A DNA stretch of 42,376 nucleotides from a virus. The notes under the pieces were generated by a model, which saw nothing but the letters and a program-made list of their open reading frames with translations, searched no databases and was not told where the DNA came from. A program made the translations under genes and the position numbers. The stretch is taken from positions 1 to 42,376 of the IMG/VR virus record IMGVR_UViG_3300036832_001683. One strand, 5' to 3'. Shown here in pieces: positions 610 to 36,004 of the stretch (the first letter of the stretch is position 1; every line of letters starts with the position of its first letter).

Positions 610-1141
610 AATTTTGGTTTCGATCCACGCTGGGATAGCCAAGTGGAAAGGCGTTAGCGCGCGCAACCGCTTCCAAGCGCAGGTTCGATTCCTGCTCCCG
701 GCTTTTCTCTTGATTATTGCCGGATGCAGCAAACCTCCGGCAAGCGTAAGTGCCGTTCATCAGCCTGTAGAAGCGCAATCACCTAATCCAGGTTGGCTGG
801 AGAGTCCGGCGAATCCGGAATCATCTTCCTCACCTTTACCATTACCATCACCTTCCCCTCCGGCGTTAACGCCTCCGGCCAGCCAGGAGATTTCTTTTTC
901 AAATCCAGCTGCTAACACAGCCTGGAACCAGTACGTAGATTCGTTTGAATCGGTCCGATCAGTACCGGCGCCTCCGGACTTGAGTGAGCCGAGCGCGATT
1001 GCCGCGCACATAGAGGAGATCAACCGGCGCCTGGCGATATTGCAGCAATCGCGCGCTACTCTCATGGGAAATCTGACGTCGCCCGAAGATCAAAAACGGT
1101 TCCGAACCGCAGAACAGTCTCTAAGTGAATCATCACAATAA
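599..1141 (+). CDS. Proline-rich lipoprotein (overlaps the tRNA-like element)
   Basis: Predicted 180 residues from a TTG at 599, chosen because GGAGGGG (586-592) lies six bases upstream; no ATG precedes the signal sequence. Residues about 30-43 form a hydrophobic stretch ending in the lipobox I-A-G-C (Cys43), so the mature protein should be a lipid-anchored envelope lipoprotein. After Cys43 come a Ser/Pro linker (LPLPSPSPP) and a C-terminal helix rich in E, R and Q. A lipobox plus a proline-rich tether resembles outer-membrane spanins, but no inner-membrane partner is adjacent and the protein is longer than usual. Codons 11-36 lie in the tRNA-like sequence, so the signal peptide may have arisen from it. 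The stop sits in the first copy of a 27-bp repeat. Confidence 0.6.
   Translation: MDFRILVSIHAGIAKWKGVSARNRFQAQVRFLLPAFLLIIAGCSKPPASVSAVHQPVEAQSPNPGWLESPANPESSSSPLPLPSPSPPALTPPASQEISFSNPAANTAWNQYVDSFESVRSVPAPPDLSEPSAIAAHIEEINRRLAILQQSRATLMGNLTSPEDQKRFRTAEQSLSESSQ
629..703 (+). tRNA. tRNA-like element, anticodon arm non-canonical
   Basis: Three tRNA helices are visible. The acceptor stem is 629-635 with 696-702 (seven pairs, one G-T). The D arm is 638-652, with GCC/GGC and a loop carrying A14-, G18G19- and A21-like bases. The T arm is 679-695, with GCAGG/CCTGC and loop TTCGATT. Bases 636-637 (TA) sit where positions 8-9 belong, and the 75-nt length fits. The anticodon arm does not: 653-678 gives only a four-pair stem (656-659 with 668-671) around an eight-base loop without U33, or a three-pair CGC/GCG stem around TTCCAA. 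No amino acid can be assigned. It may be a decayed tRNA, a tRNA-like mimic, or a real tRNA with an unusual arm. No CCA is encoded. Confidence 0.55.
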
Positions 1142-1147
1142 TGAGGC
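1121..1147 (+). repeat. 27-bp direct repeat, copy 1
   Basis: Bases 1121-1147 are identical to 1295-1321. This copy holds the last codons and TAA stop of the lipoprotein gene, immediately followed by an ATG in the overlapping TAATG arrangement. Confidence 0.9.
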
Positions 1148-1294: not shown

Positions 1295-1321
1295 CTAAGT
1301 GAATCATCACAATAATGAGGC
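1295..1321 (+). repeat. 27-bp direct repeat, copy 2
   Basis: Identical to 1121-1147. This copy provides the start codon (1315) and first codons of the di-haem cytochrome gene. The lipoprotein gene uses the same sequence in copy 1 for its stop. Confidence 0.9.
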
Positions 1322-2532
1322 TGTTCAGCGTTTTTATCTTACTGATCGCGGGGAATGCTTACGGCCAGATCGGCGCGCCATTAGCCGGGCTTAACGCAAC
1401 TGAAGCAGCTCAGTTTGCTGTCGGGTTAGCGGAATTCCAGCAGGTAGAAAGTATCGATGAGGGTATCGGCCCCCTGTTCAACAACCAGTCATGCGTTGCA
1501 TGTCATAATAATGCAGCGATTGGCGGTGCTAGCACGGTGACCGAGACCCGCTACATGAACGCTTTCCAAGCTTCCGACCTGTTGCATCAGTCGAGCATTG
1601 TACCGTCTTTTAACGGGTTCCAGATTCAAGATCAGGTTCCGCCAGACGCCACGGTGGTAGCGCATCGCAAAGCGACGGCGTTATTCGGGATGGGTTTGAT
1701 TGAAGCGATTGCCGACCAAGACATCAAGGCTAACGTGCACGTTCCCAAAACTGCGGACGGCGTTAGCGGGACCCCTTCGATCGTTAACGATCCTGCTGCC
1801 GGTCAGAACGGAACGCCGAATATTAATACCGTTGGCCGGTTCGGCTGGAAAGCTCAGGATGCCAGTCTGTTAGAGTTTGCGGCAGACGCGTACCTGAACG
1901 AGCTTGGCGTAACATCGCGCATTGCAGGATTTGATAAGGATATTGCGCCCAGCGGGGGTGTTACCGGCCAAAGGAACCAATCGGCGTTACTGGCGATTGA
2001 GCCTGCGTTAACAGGGTTCGCCTTTGATCAATTGCAGGATATCGAAAACGGCGGTCCACCGCAAACCGACGGCCATACGGCGAATATCGATGAGTTCGCC
2101 GATTTCATGCGGATGTTAGCACCGCCGCCGCCGTTGCCGTTGACCGCGCAGGCTCAGCTTGGCCAGAAACTTTTTACGAGCACCGACTGCGTAGTTTGCC
2201 ATCGACCTTCAATGACAACTACGGCCAGCAATATTCAAGCGCTCTCTTTTAAAAATGTTCCGCTCTATTCGGATCTGCTTTTGCATGATATGGGCACATC
2301 TCTGGGTGACGGTATCGTGCAGGCTGCAGCTGGGCCGACATTTATGAGAACAAGTCCCTTATGGGGTTTGCGGTTCCGAGCGCAGAACGCCTTACTCCAT
2401 GACGGGCGTGCGGCAACGCCCACGGCAGCGATCATGGCCCATGACGGCGAAGGAGCAATTGTCCGGGCAAAATTCGCGGCACTGCCTTTAGCCGATCAAG
2501 CAGCACTCATAGCGTTTCTGCTGAGTATTTGA
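1315..2532 (+). CDS. Exported di-haem cytochrome c, DHOR (di-haem oxidoreductase) family
   Basis: 405 residues. An N-terminal signal peptide (MRLFSVFILLIAGNAYG) sends it to the periplasm. Two covalent haem sites are clear: Cys60-Val-Ala-Cys63-His64, in the context GIGPLFNNQSCVACH, and Cys292-Val-Val-Cys295-His296. Family blocks include ALFGMGLIEAI, RFGWKAQ with SLLEFAA, LLLHDMGTSLGDG and PLWGLRFR with LLHDGRA near the C-terminus. These match the DHOR or 'thiol oxidoreductase-like' family, relatives of MauG and bacterial cytochrome c peroxidases, which do redox chemistry with two haems. It is somewhat short for the family. Haem attachment would need the host Ccm system. Its ATG lies in repeat copy 2, right after a mini-gene. 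A respiratory-type cytochrome beside phage genes is unusual; it is an auxiliary gene or host DNA. Substrate unknown. Confidence 0.88.
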   Translation: MRLFSVFILLIAGNAYGQIGAPLAGLNATEAAQFAVGLAEFQQVESIDEGIGPLFNNQSCVACHNNAAIGGASTVTETRYMNAFQASDLLHQSSIVPSFNGFQIQDQVPPDATVVAHRKATALFGMGLIEAIADQDIKANVHVPKTADGVSGTPSIVNDPAAGQNGTPNINTVGRFGWKAQDASLLEFAADAYLNELGVTSRIAGFDKDIAPSGGVTGQRNQSALLAIEPALTGFAFDQLQDIENGGPPQTDGHTANIDEFADFMRMLAPPPPLPLTAQAQLGQKLFTSTDCVVCHRPSMTTTASNIQALSFKNVPLYSDLLLHDMGTSLGDGIVQAAAGPTFMRTSPLWGLRFRAQNALLHDGRAATPTAAIMAHDGEGAIVRAKFAALPLADQAALIAFLLSI

Positions 2533-5192: not shown

Positions 5193-5666
5193 TCAGCTTT
5201 TCTTAGAGAGCAGGTCAATCAGCGCTGAAGCCTGACCCATGGTGAGGGTCTTTAGATCGAACAAGCCTTCGGTCAGGTTCGGCAATACCGACAACAGTTT
5301 ATGGATATGCATCGGAGTGACTGACATCACCGTTTCGGTTTGCCAGGTTGTGAACAGGCGTTTGTTGATCAACTTGTGCAGGAAGCGCAGTTGCGGCTCA
5401 GTAACCGGCCTAGGATCGTCCGGGCTCACTTTGCCTACGCGGTACCTTGGTTTATCGCCAGGAAGAGGTACAAGGGGTTTCCAGGGCCCTGGTAACGGTA
5501 AGGGAAGTTCCTTTTGCTTTTGCTTCTGATCGGCCAACGCTTCGGCTCTGCCAAAAGCCCAGCCTTGGATAAAGGCTGCTTTAATAGAGGCAAAATCGGC
5601 GTTTGGCAGTTCAGGGAAACCTTTCTCGCAATACCAATCTTCAAAAATCTCTTCCTTACTCTGCAT
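5193..5666 (-). CDS. Hypothetical protein, 157 residues
   Basis: The N-terminal helical region (EIFEDWYCEKGFPELP... FIQGWAFGRAEALADQ) has a conserved-looking 'F-x-x-GW-x-x-GR' segment. A basic/proline linker follows (KQKQKELPLPLPGPWKPL). The C-terminal part (PVTEPQLRFLHKLINKR ... LTMGQASALIDLLSKK) resembles a short helical domain frequent in phage and plasmid proteins, in which 'T-x-x-Q...L...L' is followed by 'LT-x-x-x-AS-x-[LI]I'. Function unknown. The start overlaps the end of the DUF7192-like gene by 11 bases, so it is probably translated with the AAA+ pair. Confidence 0.6.
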   Translation of the reverse strand: MQSKEEIFEDWYCEKGFPELPNADFASIKAAFIQGWAFGRAEALADQKQKQKELPLPLPGPWKPLVPLPGDKPRYRVGKVSPDDPRPVTEPQLRFLHKLINKRLFTTWQTETVMSVTPMHIHKLLSVLPNLTEGLFDLKTLTMGQASALIDLLSKKS

Positions 5667-6492
5667 AAGTCACCTCCTTAACGCTGCAAAGAGTGCTGAA
5701 CATCGCCTCTATCTGGGCAATAGCTTCTTTGACCGAGTGCAGGTGCATGTGCGGAACGATCAGATCATATTGATCGGAAGGAACCAGCGCGTTGATGCTG
5801 GCGGGTGTTCCGTAAGATCCGTTCGAAGTAAACCCGAAGGTGTTAACAACCTCCTTGGAACACTGCTCAACGAAACTAAAGAATATCCTGCGGAAACTTG
5901 ATGGATGGGTCAGATGAAACGCCATCAGGTCAAGGTGCACGGGTTCCTCGGCTCGTTTAAGGTTAACGAGCCAGGTTCCCTGATGTTGGGAGCCGCGCGT
6001 GCAGCAGTAAGCCATGTCCAGTTCTACGCGAACTCCGGAAGCTTCCAGTTTATCGATCAGGGCGAGGAGAGTAGCGCCACGCCAGCGGATAGTTTCGGGA
6101 GTAACTCCGGAACTGACCGACATGTTCATAAGCAAGCGGGCAACACGTGCGCGTTCGGGAACCGGTTCAAAGCGCATCATGTTTTCGGGTTGACCGGTAA
6201 CGTAAGCGCCGACATCAACAAAATCGCCGGTGACATCCCACCCTATCTGTTGAGTCTCGACATCCATCTGAGTCTCGACATCGGACAGGATATGACCGAC
6301 CAGTTCTCTCCCCTCCGGCCAGCCTTCCAGCGCAAGGGTTCTAGCTTCATCGAATGACTCGGAGCCGCACCACCTGTTGTAGAACGGATCAGAATCGCGG
6401 CTGGAGCGATGCTTAGCCTCGTAAGGCGCCGGTTTATCGGACAGAGCGCGAGCGAGATACTCTTCGTAAGAGAAACGTTCAAAGACGGTCAT
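5656..6492 (-). CDS. DUF7192-like partner of the AAA+ ATPase
   Basis: 278 residues. Recognisable blocks are 'FYNRWCGSESFDEARTLALEGWPEG' near residue 37, the region VTGDFVDVGAYVTGQPENMMRF, and RGATLLALIDKLEASGVRVELD. This layout matches the DUF7192 family found in phages beside MoxR/CobS-type ATPases; I rely on memory of the pattern. In cellular MoxR or CobS systems the second gene encodes a VWA-type partner (CobT-like), and a similar effector role is inferred here. Three His residues cluster at VPHMHLH near the C-terminus. The start overlaps the ATPase stop by four bases (ATGA), the usual mark of a co-translated complex. Confidence 0.6.
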   Translation of the reverse strand: MTVFERFSYEEYLARALSDKPAPYEAKHRSSRDSDPFYNRWCGSESFDEARTLALEGWPEGRELVGHILSDVETQMDVETQQIGWDVTGDFVDVGAYVTGQPENMMRFEPVPERARVARLLMNMSVSSGVTPETIRWRGATLLALIDKLEASGVRVELDMAYCCTRGSQHQGTWLVNLKRAEEPVHLDLMAFHLTHPSSFRRIFFSFVEQCSKEVVNTFGFTSNGSYGTPASINALVPSDQYDLIVPHMHLHSVKEAIAQIEAMFSTLCSVKEVTYAE

Positions 6493-7694
6493 ACAACCTC
6501 CAACCCGGCGATAACCTTGGCTTTCTCGGTTTCCTTCAGCCCCTGCCAGATGCAGGCGAATTCCACTTCGTCTCTGGACAGAACCCCGTCGGCGAGCGCC
6601 TTAGCGCCGTCATAACTTGCCCGAGGGCTGATCACGTGCCGGATACCGACTTTAGCGGCCGATTTTCGAACGGCCTGGACGTACTTGCACCAATCGGTGT
6701 TAACGCAGAGGGCAAGTTCCAGGGCATCGTCTTGATCCCATGAGATAAACTTGAATCGGGTAATGGTAGCAGCATCCAGCTGGTTGCGGCCGACATACTC
6801 GCGGTCAGCGCCACGGCCGAAGGTGTTCATGGCCACAATGACGATGAAATCCTTATGACGCCCGACGAGCTTGCCGTCCGGGAACCCGGCGTGGCTGTTA
6901 GCGGTAATCGCGTTGAGCACGGTCGCTACGTTGGCGTTAGCGGCATCAAACTCGTCTAGTAATACCACACCGCCAAACTCGAATGATTCCCGGATCACCG
7001 TAGAGACGTAACGCCCGGAAGCATCCATATAACCGACCAGATCGGACTTGGTCGTCTGGGCTCCAACCGAGATCGAGCGGAACTCCAGCCCCAGGGCTAA
7101 AGCGGCTTGGCGAGCGCCTTCGGTTTTGCCGGTACCGGCAGGTCCGACCAGAGCGCAATGCATGCGCATACGCAACCATGCTAAGAGCGATGGAAAGCGG
7201 AAATGCTGAACGCCAAGGTCTTTGCGCTCCTCAGTGTCACGGTTATAGACTTCAACGCGGGTCGGTTGCTGTAAGGAATCCAGATACGCTTTCAGCTCAG
7301 TCTGGAGATTGCCAATGCGCTCATTGAGCATCTGCTCATTAACGCCTGCAGCCAGCTTATTGCGTTTATTGAGGCGATTCTCAATCAGAGCAAACAGGTC
7401 ATCGTCAGATTCGCCGTTTTTAGCCGATGGCAAGCTGGGAGATTCCTGATAGGTCGCCAGATTTCCAAAGGTGTACCCGTTATTGGAGAAAGCTCCTGTG
7501 AAGATGTAATCACGCTGAGCGCTGGCTGTAGCGTTATGTAAATTGGTCTTAGAAACCCCATCGTTACGGGCAAAGGCGATCGCCTTACTAAAGGGACGCA
7601 TCCTGTCCCGATCCCAGTCTTGGCAATCCTTCCAGCCGGTCACGTGTCCGACGCCGTTAGCGTCAAACCATTCAATTGGGTCTTGATTTATCAT
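6489..7694 (-). CDS. MoxR/CobS-like AAA+ ATPase
   Basis: 401 residues. A helical/coiled-coil N-terminus (about 95-145) precedes the AAA+ core. Walker A is GPAGTGKT (184-191), Walker B is VVLLDEFD (243-250), and a sensor-1-like stretch IVIVAMNTFGRGADREYVG follows, with a loop naming R residues (ATITRFKFISWD). The order and loops fit the MoxR/CobS/dynein-related group (AAA_5) that remodels protein partners, often metal-centre or VWA proteins. The partner here is probably the next gene, 6492-5656. The N-terminal 90 residues match no family I know. It is the largest gene of the leftward operon, and its leader is A/C-rich without a Shine-Dalgarno sequence. Confidence 0.85.
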   Translation of the reverse strand: MINQDPIEWFDANGVGHVTGWKDCQDWDRDRMRPFSKAIAFARNDGVSKTNLHNATASAQRDYIFTGAFSNNGYTFGNLATYQESPSLPSAKNGESDDDLFALIENRLNKRNKLAAGVNEQMLNERIGNLQTELKAYLDSLQQPTRVEVYNRDTEERKDLGVQHFRFPSLLAWLRMRMHCALVGPAGTGKTEGARQAALALGLEFRSISVGAQTTKSDLVGYMDASGRYVSTVIRESFEFGGVVLLDEFDAANANVATVLNAITANSHAGFPDGKLVGRHKDFIVIVAMNTFGRGADREYVGRNQLDAATITRFKFISWDQDDALELALCVNTDWCKYVQAVRKSAAKVGIRHVISPRASYDGAKALADGVLSRDEVEFACIWQGLKETEKAKVIAGLEVV

Positions 7695-7726
7695 TTTCTT
7701 TTTGGTTTTGGAGTTCAGAAGAGTTC

Positions 7727-7876
7727 TTAAAGGTATTTTTCGATCAGCGCGTCTAAATGCGCGTTGATCACTTCGAGCTGGCTGGAACGGCAGATCGCCA
7801 CCCCGTCGGCCAGCAGGTAAAACGAGCGGTTGACCGCATCGATCGTTACTTCAATTCTTGGATATGCTTTGTTCAT
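7727..7876 (-). CDS. Small hypothetical protein, 49 residues
   Basis: ATG at 7876 chosen over an upstream in-frame start because AAGGAAA lies eight bases before it. Product MNKAYPRIEVTIDAVNRSFY... LEVINAHLDALIEKYL: two or three short strands followed by a C-terminal helix, a compact beta-alpha protein. No family is recognised. It is probably the first gene of the leftward operon, since the next gene begins 33 bases after its stop. Confidence 0.6.
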   Translation of the reverse strand: MNKAYPRIEVTIDAVNRSFYLLADGVAICRSSQLEVINAHLDALIEKYL

Positions 7877-15353: not shown

Positions 15354-16031
15354 CTAATAACCAAGCATTTGCAAAAGATTATTCCATGCTTTTGGATGGT
15401 CGTTGCACAACTTAACTGCATGCCATACAAGGTCAAGAGGAACGTTGTTAGAGCTAGCAAAGGACGAAATGGATTCACCATTTGGAAGCCGGATGTTTCG
15501 ATTGGTATTCCATGTTTGTTGATTCTTTGGAATGAAACGGCAATTCTCTGGATAGTAACCTTGTTTGACATCGTTACGTTCAAGTGTCAGCGATTGGTTG
15601 TCTTTGTATCCAGCTTTTTGGGCCCATTCAAAAAATCCTTCGAATGTTTCCCATTCAGGACAATACGTGATGCCTTTCCCGCCGTAATATTCATACCCGG
15701 TTTCTCTGGGATCAGTACAACGGCGTTTCATGTGAAACCAGGCTATATACAGAGGGGTTCTGCTCATGCCGTGCGTGCGATTAGCCTTGCCGCTAGCAGA
15801 GCGAGCAGCCTGTTGTTTGACCGATTTCGTCTCCCTCTGGCATCCGCAATTTGTGGAGATACCTCCACGCAAATTGGTGGAATCGACCCAGCCGGTGTTT
15901 CCACACTGACAGGTACAAAACCACATAGTGCGGTTTCCTCGACCGTCTGGACGTGGCTTGGATTGATGTGGACCAGTGACGGTCCAATGATCGAAAGTTT
16001 GGTTTTTTAGTTCAATGAATGGTTTACCCAT
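15354..16031 (-). CDS. Free-standing HNH-type homing endonuclease, antisense
   Basis: 225 residues on the minus strand between capsid and decoration genes, while neighbours for 20 kb run rightward. The N-terminal zinc ribbon is WFCTCQCGNTGW...TNCGCQR (about 36-67). The nuclease-like centre contains KRRCTDP, YEYYGGKGITYCPEW (a YGG-x-GI block) and the HNH-like run SLTLERNDVKQGYYPENCRF. A C-terminal NUMOD-like segment (ISSFASSNNVPLDLVWHAV) probably contacts DNA. This layout is typical of phage homing endonucleases that cut alleles lacking the gene and spread by gene conversion. Its insertion 4 bases from the capsid stop, near an invariant target, is typical. Activity cannot be judged from sequence alone. 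Confidence 0.8.
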   Translation of the reverse strand: MGKPFIELKNQTFDHWTVTGPHQSKPRPDGRGNRTMWFCTCQCGNTGWVDSTNLRGGISTNCGCQRETKSVKQQAARSASGKANRTHGMSRTPLYIAWFHMKRRCTDPRETGYEYYGGKGITYCPEWETFEGFFEWAQKAGYKDNQSLTLERNDVKQGYYPENCRFIPKNQQTWNTNRNIRLPNGESISSFASSNNVPLDLVWHAVKLCNDHPKAWNNLLQMLGY

Positions 16032-34029: not shown

Positions 34030-35616
34030 ATGGCAGCGTGTTATAATGGTCCTAATCCGGCTGATGAAGATCCTCGTTTACGGCCAACCATCTGGAAGTG
34101 GACGAAAGAAAATGCCATCGATAAAGGCTTGGATTTAAGCCAAACTAAAGATGCTATCAACAACCATTTTTTTGCTGGCCAAGCTAAAGACAAATGGTTG
34201 AACGACATCATTGGTGGCCGCAAAACTCCGTTCCGATCCGTTGCTAACGCAGCCTGGAAAGCGCAGTTCAATCGCAGGCAGATTATCAAGCAAGCCCAGA
34301 ACTTGAGCAAGACTCAGGCTATGGGGCCAATTGGCAGAGCGGCTGCTTTTGCAGGTGATATTCCAAGAGAACTAGCGACGATTGGACATGCAGTTGTTTT
34401 CCCCATATCACATGCGGGCGATCTGTTAATTAACCCTTTGAGATGGGGCACGGTGTTCCGAGGTATTTTTAATACCTACAGAAGCGGGTGGTATGGAAAA
34501 GGATCGCAAATTTTTCATGACCAGATGATGAAAGACCTTAAGAAGAAAAGTCTCTATGACCTTGGTTTAAGAAGCAGCGTGGATATATCCGAGAAATCAC
34601 ATGCGACTGGTTTGATTTCGAGAATTTTCGGTAAGTCATCTGAACGCGCCTGGGACGCTCTGAAGGTCATGCGTTACGAGTTGTGGGAACAGCGAATGAA
34701 CAAGTATCTGAAGCCCGATATGACTCAGGAACAACAACTTGAGCTTGGCAAAGAGATGGCGAATTGGGCTAATCACGCTACCGGCTCGGTAAAAACGGTT
34801 CCAACCATTGGCGGATTGATGTTCGGCCCTAAGTTAACAGCATCAAAACTTGCCAGGCTTGGCGCTGACCCATGGGATACGATCAAAACCTTTGCCAACT
34901 GGAACAACGCAACATACGGCCAGAAAGCGGTAGCCTGGACCCGGCTTGCCGGTGCTACGCAGTACGGTGTAGGACTTGCTGGGTTTCTGGCAGTTAACCA
35001 AGGGTTTTTATGGGCAACACACAGCAACCAGAAGGTCAATTGGAGCGACCCCGATAAACCCGATTTCCTGGCTTTTAAAGGATTCGGAATGGAAGGTTAC
35101 ATACCCGGATTGCATACGGAGATCAGGACTCTGGCGCAAATTCTGGCTACAGCACGATTAAATCCCAGGACTCCAGGCTTGGCAAATTGGCAGAAACAAG
35201 ACGCAAAAGATAAATTCGGAGCAATAGCCAAGATTGGCGGTCAATACCTCATGCACAAAGCGACTCCAGGTCTTGAGGAAACGTTGGAACTCGCAACCGG
35301 CCAAGATTATCAGGGGCGTCCGTTACCTGCATTGCCTTGGGTTAATCAACCTGGAACAGCCAAGAAACCAAAGTACGATTGGACCGAATATGCGTTAACG
35401 CACGCTCCGATACCGCTTACCGGTCCAGTAGGTTATTTCTATAAGAAGTTGAGGGAAGGTGGCACCAGTTCACTGGATGCGACAGCTATTACCAGGGCAC
35501 TGATTATTTTTGGTATTGGAATGACCGGCACCCATATTGCTGAAGACAAGCCCAATCAAAACATGGATGAAGCTGCTCAAGTAGCAAAAGCTAAACACAT
35601 CCTGCTGGGTTATTGA
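34030..35616 (+). CDS. Large internal virion protein
   Basis: 528 residues, starting three bases after the giant protein's stop. Helical, basic regions (WKAQFNRRQIIKQAQNLSK, LGKEMANWANHATGS) alternate with hydrophobic segments (YGVGLAGFLAVNQGFLWA, ALIIFGIGMTGTHIAE). The pattern is like the C-terminal 'associated domain' of large phage polyvalent or ejection proteins. It probably travels with the giant protein into the host. No enzymatic motif is visible. Its end overlaps the convergent leftward gene by 26 bases, marking the end of the late operon. Confidence 0.55.
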   Translation: MAACYNGPNPADEDPRLRPTIWKWTKENAIDKGLDLSQTKDAINNHFFAGQAKDKWLNDIIGGRKTPFRSVANAAWKAQFNRRQIIKQAQNLSKTQAMGPIGRAAAFAGDIPRELATIGHAVVFPISHAGDLLINPLRWGTVFRGIFNTYRSGWYGKGSQIFHDQMMKDLKKKSLYDLGLRSSVDISEKSHATGLISRIFGKSSERAWDALKVMRYELWEQRMNKYLKPDMTQEQQLELGKEMANWANHATGSVKTVPTIGGLMFGPKLTASKLARLGADPWDTIKTFANWNNATYGQKAVAWTRLAGATQYGVGLAGFLAVNQGFLWATHSNQKVNWSDPDKPDFLAFKGFGMEGYIPGLHTEIRTLAQILATARLNPRTPGLANWQKQDAKDKFGAIAKIGGQYLMHKATPGLEETLELATGQDYQGRPLPALPWVNQPGTAKKPKYDWTEYALTHAPIPLTGPVGYFYKKLREGGTSSLDATAITRALIIFGIGMTGTHIAEDKPNQNMDEAAQVAKAKHILLGY

Positions 35617-36004
35617 TTTGTATTTCTTTCAGGCACCGGTCACACAACTCGGCGTGTATAGAGACGGGCACGCCGCAGGAAGAACAGAGCCGGAACTGAA
35701 ACCGAGGCAGCACCAGCACGCTAGCCAGACAACCGTTCCTGGTGTTACGCCGAACCTTTTTACCATCCTGATCCAGTTTCCGGCAAACCATGTCGCTGCG
35801 AAGCAATTCACTGCAACGCGCACTGGCCGTCTGATGCGCCATATCGAGAATCACCTCAAGCTCATCACAGGTAGCGCCATGTTCTGCCAAGGGAAGGAGC
35901 GCCTCCAGAATTCGCTGCTGGTCACGATGTTTGTTCGTGTGCGCATTCGCTCCATAGCTCTCCTCGTTCCCGCCATGATAGTTCTCGCAGATATCGTCAT
36001 TCAT
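35591..36004 (-). CDS. Winged-helix regulator with C-terminal zinc ribbon
   Basis: 137 residues. A winged helix is visible at about 30-85: RDQQRILEALLPLAEHGATC DELEVIL, then MAHQTASARCSELLRSDMVC (recognition helix), a basic stretch RKLDQDGKKVRRNTRNGCLA and strands. The C-terminal ribbon has CSSC (Cys108/Cys111-type) and CDRC. This 'T..E...L...HQTASAR...L...G' winged-helix family occurs in phages as small regulators. It is convergent with the late genes, and its start overlaps the stop of the upstream membrane protein gene (ATGA), so the two form a small operon. Confidence 0.7.
   Translation of the reverse strand: MNDDICENYHGGNEESYGANAHTNKHRDQQRILEALLPLAEHGATCDELEVILDMAHQTASARCSELLRSDMVCRKLDQDGKKVRRNTRNGCLASVLVLPRFQFRLCSSCGVPVSIHAELCDRCLKEIQINNPAGCV

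Follow-up and report, generated by a model that had tools for sequence, protein, structure and literature searches.

A phage-borne gene for a predicted exported di-haem cytochrome c oxidoreductase, linked to genes for other exported proteins

The window, which here means the whole 42,376-base stretch that was analysed (a linear virus record, IMGVR_UViG_3300036832_001683), carries at 1315–2532 (+) a gene for an exported di-haem cytochrome c oxidoreductase (DHOR) that is almost certainly a phage gene. Sequence analysis establishes that the gene lies in phage DNA, recurs in distinct phages, is under purifying selection and is linked to genes for a lipoprotein, a right-handed beta-helix protein and a small protein; it likewise establishes the export signal, both haem sites and the fold of the product. 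The product is predicted with high confidence to be an active di-haem enzyme. We propose that DHOR is the main enzyme of a phage 'moron' cassette, its likeliest role being the reduction of peroxide or another oxidant in the periplasm during infection.

The DHOR gene and the predicted fold of its product

The gene is intact, begins with ATG and encodes 405 amino acids. Its N-terminus carries the signal peptide MRLFSVFILLIAGNAYG followed by Q (1315–1365, +), recognised by eye from the n/h/c-region pattern. The first haem site, CVACH, lies at 1492–1506 (+; residues 60–64), the second, CVVCH, at 2188–2202 (+; residues 292–296), and an LHDGRA motif at 2395–2412 (+). Two CxxCH sites and a signal peptide had been noted in a sequence-only reading of this DNA, and both were confirmed at these positions, as features that chance would hardly produce. 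That reading had also proposed the DHOR family, and this assignment is borne out by a match to Pfam DHOR (PF06537), a family of di-haem oxidoreductases and putative peroxidases, over two stretches (E=1.2e-45, 156.4 bits versus a cut-off of 22). The protein retains the GP before the first haem, both CxxCH sites, YxDLLLHD, RTxPLWGL, LHDGRA and HxGE, positions that are near-invariant among 47 aligned phage and bacterial DHORs. Since the score for CCP_MauG (PF03150) is 14.6 bits, below the cut-off of 25.6, the protein was filed as a DHOR that is kin to CCP_MauG proteins by fold. A PHROG search with the window DHOR matched no family and, to our knowledge, bacterial DHORs are biochemically little characterized.

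An AlphaFold model computed from the 47-row alignment (pLDDT 88, pTM 0.88) predicts the two-domain di-haem fold of the bacterial cytochrome c peroxidase (bCCP)/MauG type. Foldseek placed MauG first (E 4.5e-6, probability 1.0), followed by bCCP and hydrazine synthase gamma; ranks 1–3 were MauG/pre-MADH complexes, which were also among the top VIA-align rows. In VIA-align, MauG, bCCP, BthA and hydrazine synthase gamma were tied (Z about 15–16 over ∼220–250 residues). Because MauG, the peroxidases and hydrazine synthase gamma score alike, the fold is compatible with either a peroxidase or a protein-oxidising role. A sequence search of the PDB with the single window protein gave no match, and the same search with a DHOR profile matched bCCPs. 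In the profile match to Shewanella BccP (3o5c), the Glu/Asp of the DHOR NELG/NEMG motif aligns with the glutamate of NPKEMG, the presumed acid-base catalyst in bCCPs. DHOR shares with bCCP and with MauG/BthA the predicted fold, two c-type haem sites, an HDG motif and an aligned acid-base Glu, but is only ∼15–24% identical to them in sequence, with the sub-threshold CCP_MauG score given above. The sixth ligand of the electron-transfer haem is Met in bCCP and Tyr in MauG; in DHOR, modelled without haem, one candidate is Met326, which is kept in most DHORs and replaced by Thr in one phage copy (L109) and Val in another (L115). The viral structure library BFVD gave no match to the DHOR model at E 0.001.

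The cassette and the phages that carry it

The window encodes a portal, a major head protein, tail fibre proteins, RecT, an exonuclease, a primase and a DnaB-like protein/primase-helicase. No end repeats were found in it. It also contains a gene pair (5656–7694, −) for a DUF7192 protein and an AAA ATPase (phrog_249, labelled porphyrin biosynthesis) and an HNH endonuclease gene (15354–16031, −) on the strand opposite to its neighbours. A host search with the capsid protein of this phage against 384 genomes of the class of the Spartobacteria relative gave no match.

The cassette occupies the left end of the window. Its first gene (1–609, +) encodes an exported right-handed beta-helix protein and has lost its 5' end at the contig edge, leaving 202 of ∼238 residues. 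It is followed by a lipoprotein gene (599–1141, +) with the lipobox LIIAGC and a Pro-rich stretch, then by DHOR and, as the last gene, one for a small basic protein of 50 residues that contains FPPAIFNRGYLAK (2640–2792, +). The same genes occur in the same order in a second virus contig, G001 (IMGVR_UViG_3300036832_002070, 35,742 bases; its DHOR locus is L002). There the beta-helix protein, 84% identical to that of the window, is 238 residues long and has a signal peptide, the mature part of the adjacent lipoprotein is 86% identical, DHOR is 83% identical, and the 50-residue homologue (62% identical) overlaps the DHOR stop codon. The lipoprotein and beta-helix neighbours pointed out in the sequence-only reading are thus real. 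On one side the G001 cassette is flanked by genes for a Sak4-like annealing protein, an exonuclease and a primase, and on the other by a collagen-like tail fibre gene and two linked genes common to the window (76 and 45% identical), beyond which lie the terminase and major head protein. The latter two belong to phrog_2 and phrog_1328 in G001 versus phrog_5902 and phrog_1357 in the window, so the cassette is common to phages with different head modules. G001 further carries a phosphoadenosine phosphosulfate reductase-like gene (34915–35742, equivalent to 18915–19742 of L010) with a weak PHROG match (5.8e-07).

These observations bear on whether the gene might be host DNA at a contig edge or the product of a chimeric assembly, an alternative that the sequence-only reading had itself raised, with a possible phage–host junction at 2532–2640. 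DHOR does lie close to the left edge of the linear window, and host flanks do occur in the collection, as in L111. The G001 cassette, however, is embedded in a phage genome and has phage genes to either side of it, and the supposed junction lies within the cassette, since the 50-residue gene directly follows DHOR both in G001 and in L109 (70% identical), which likewise comes from a phage. The tetranucleotide composition of 1–2532 is ordinary for the window phage (0.775, versus 0.58–0.84 for other 2.5-kb windows of the same phage), and the window DHOR falls in a clade of phage proteins only, as described below. Given G001 and the position of the cassette boundary, we reject a host origin of this region, which is hardly credible on this evidence. 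The excess of GTTAAC that had been taken to tie the region to clear phage genes is real but modest (52 observed versus 36.7 expected in the whole window, with five copies in 1–2532). It is weak evidence taken alone and is absent from G001 (5 versus 5.1), and was therefore not used as proof of phage origin. Among other hexamers, GCCGGC is missing from the window (1–42376; 0 versus 26.7 expected), as are GAGCTC, GGATCC and CCGCGG. GCCGGC is also nearly missing from G002 and G003 but not from G001 or G004. The absence of these sites looks like escape from host restriction.

Several small elements accompany the cassette. A 75-nt tRNA-like element (629–703, +; detected by ARAGORN, Rfam tRNA 43.3 bits) sits in frame within the 5' part of the lipoprotein open reading frame, and a 72-nt counterpart in G001 (L002 8718–8789; Rfam 50 bits) lies in front of the cassette, upstream of the beta-helix gene. 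By hand reading, the anticodon loop has no U33. The element was considered as a general phage signal and set aside, as its exact 36-base pattern was found only in G001. A perfect 27-bp direct repeat is present at 1121–1147 (+), where it spans the end of the lipoprotein gene and a DHOR-like start codon context, and at 1295–1321 (+), where it contains the DHOR start codon. The 174-bp step between the copies holds a 37-residue open reading frame (1160–1270) and is missing from G001, in which the stop codon of the lipoprotein gene and the start codon of DHOR share bases in TAATG.

Further DHOR-bearing virus contigs, all of them fragments, were found with a profile made from phage and bacterial DHORs. 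Three DHORs (L107, L108 and L109) are 45–50% identical and occupy differing genomic slots: between the terminase and portal genes in L107, after the tape-measure gene of a tail-sheath phage in L108, and, in L109, with a tail-linked gene on one side and on the other an early operon close to the one in G001. In these three and in G001, DHOR is flanked on both sides by phage genes, so that the gene is interior to independent phage contigs, which supports the reading that DHOR is encoded by the phage and shares a cassette with genes for exported proteins. In L108 an HNH endonuclease gene (7272–7763, −) adjoins DHOR on the strand opposite to its neighbours and might help in the spread of DHOR. DHOR also follows terminase, portal and head-morphogenesis genes in L113 and L114, lies between DNA polymerase and endolysin genes in L115, and occurs on a 4.6-kb piece with a terminase in L112. 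Two candidates were not counted: L111, which appears to be host DNA adjoining a Zot-bearing prophage and whose DHOR groups with Burkholderiales copies, and L110, a long-branch row with no neighbours recognised as phage. Among isolate phages, the window protein and L115 found no DHOR, and L107 gave one weak, partial match (28%) to an unannotated faecal phage record.

The sequence-only reading had held that a complete genome of this phage type lacking the gene would count against it. The terminase relatives G002–G004, in which DHOR is absent, come close to this, but they are fragments and show only that DHOR is an accessory or 'moron' gene. The terminases of L107 and a further phage, L008, are 86% identical, and yet their terminase–portal slots differ in content, with DHOR in L107 and a beta-helix protein, a lipoprotein and an exported GH10 enzyme in L008. 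This contrast gives a picture of exchangeable accessory genes. The L008 beta-helix protein, to which Pfam Beta_helix matches weakly, is 67–69% identical to that of the window and its gene adjoins the lipoprotein gene, although by BLAST the lipoprotein is unrelated to the window's. The glycosyl hydrolase of L008 (2477–3874) is of family 10, the xylanase family (PF00331, 1.7e-18).

Descent and selection

A two-row profile scan of genome contigs found no DHOR, whereas an eight-row profile recovered 80 bacterial loci. The alignment and tree that had been suggested in the sequence-only reading were made with 66 DHORs (IQ-TREE, mixture model). In this tree a clade with 100/99 support and no bacterial member unites the window copy with L002, L107, L108 and L109; the four members other than the window come from IMG records 3300036785 to 3300036832 and may share one sampling project. 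The nearest bacterial DHORs by identity (∼45–50%) are from Verrucomicrobiota and two MAGs labelled beta-proteobacterial. A single origin of the window clade together with L112–L115 is rejected (p-AU 0.0025), whereas the test does not reject a single origin when only L112 and L115 are joined to the window clade (p-AU 0.39). L113 and L114 are placed elsewhere in the tree and represent a separate capture of DHOR. Phages thus acquired the gene from bacteria no fewer than two times, and in one case it then evolved within phages for a long period.

Between the window and G001, dN/dS is 0.078 for DHOR, 0.10 for the mature part of the lipoprotein and 0.11 for the beta-helix protein, ratios that are rough because synonymous sites are near saturation. 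Even so, the three cassette genes tested are plainly constrained by purifying selection, and it is this that would speak for their use during infection.

Proposed role and relation to known systems

An exported protein with two haem sites depends for its maturation on a host that possesses cytochrome c maturation. We propose that, during infection, the host Sec system would export DHOR and the host apparatus for cytochrome c maturation would attach its two covalent haems. Once in the periplasm, the enzyme would most likely draw electrons from the host respiratory chain to reduce peroxide or some other oxidant, such that envelope and respiration might stay working until lysis. In this fold class, bCCP and BthA reduce peroxide with electrons from small cytochromes, and MauG oxidises a bound protein (PMC6405878). 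We give a role in handling peroxide or respiratory electrons the highest rank, since such a role calls for no dedicated partner and some phages have DHOR but not the lipoprotein and beta-helix genes; as to the putative substrate, however, this ranking is tentative. The conservation of DHOR in several distinct phages suggests interference with the envelope redox chemistry of infected bacteria.

The main task of the protein could instead be that of a MauG-like maturase, oxidising a partner protein rather than free peroxide. Possible partners include the lipoprotein or small basic protein of the cassette, an envelope protein of the host and a phage receptor, and the oxidation would change the cell surface or a virion part. 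The first three Foldseek ranks, the export of the cassette partners and the linkage of the 50-residue gene to DHOR across an identity gap of 45% are all in keeping with this, but bCCP structures score within 1 Z unit of MauG, DHOR has neither the lipoprotein nor the beta-helix gene beside it in L107–L109, and L008 has the beta-helix gene without DHOR. It follows that neither the lipoprotein nor the beta-helix protein is an obligatory substrate. We regard MauG-like action as unlikely, but keep it as the main rival because three phages have the 50-residue gene in linkage with DHOR. It is improbable that the phage-specific DHOR line works with the small protein, and in some phages with the lipoprotein, in MauG-like oxidation of envelope proteins; such a viral periplasmic protein-oxidation system would have receptors of the host or tail parts of the phage as candidate targets.

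Morons with exported or lipid-anchored products are typical of lysogenic conversion and superinfection exclusion systems, and related phages (L107 and L008) carry different exported proteins in one variable slot, as would be expected if the cassette altered the envelope to keep out other phages and its redox activity were secondary. Such a function is nonetheless quite unlikely, with no integrase among the scanned proteins (a subset of open reading frames) of the window and G001, and with DHOR among the late genes in L107 and L108. A link between DUF1111 proteins and imelysin has been described, with a proposed role in iron uptake (PMC3143127), and plasmid-borne DHORs of Thermus, Sinorhizobium and Pseudomonas adjoin imelysin genes, so that DHOR might act similarly in iron or haem handling and aid iron uptake by the infected cell. 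Against this, an imelysin or transporter gene was seen in no phage cassette and, as judged by eye, the nearest bacterial relatives (L026, L029, L091, L027 and L028) have no imelysin neighbour, which makes iron uptake less likely and, in our estimate, very improbable.

Very little is known of phage genes for redox enzymes with covalently bound haem. Here an intact di-haem enzyme has been captured more than once, has moved among different phage backbones and is maintained by selection. Should it be active, it would give phages access to host respiration or peroxide handling by way of the periplasm, relying on host cytochrome c maturation, and the phage clade could open a way into the poorly characterized DHOR family. 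No description of a phage DHOR was found in the open-licence papers searched, nor were any such papers found on PF06537, or on cytochrome c peroxidase together with viral AMGs. Phage auxiliary genes are of a known kind, and what appears to be new is the DHOR family in phages, with its own clade and cassette. The window copy resembles other DHOR/DUF1111 proteins in both CxxCH sites, the near-invariant motifs and the strong profile match, but differs from them in being phage-borne, in its separate clade, ∼45–50% identical to the nearest bacterial copies, and in having beta-helix, lipoprotein and 50-residue genes as neighbours instead of imelysin or Rieske genes. Cytochrome b5 binds b-type haem non-covalently and has another fold. 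It is encoded by giant viruses (PMC11814380) and is comparable to DHOR as a virus-encoded haem electron-transfer protein, but these are viruses of eukaryotes. Phages also carry the sulfur-oxidation AMGs soxC and soxD, and both reported phage SoxD proteins miss one or both haem motifs (PMC8190135). Phage SoxD is, like DHOR, a phage-borne c-type cytochrome protein of periplasmic electron transfer, but it belongs to another family, and the DHOR haem motifs, by contrast, are intact and conserved in five phages.
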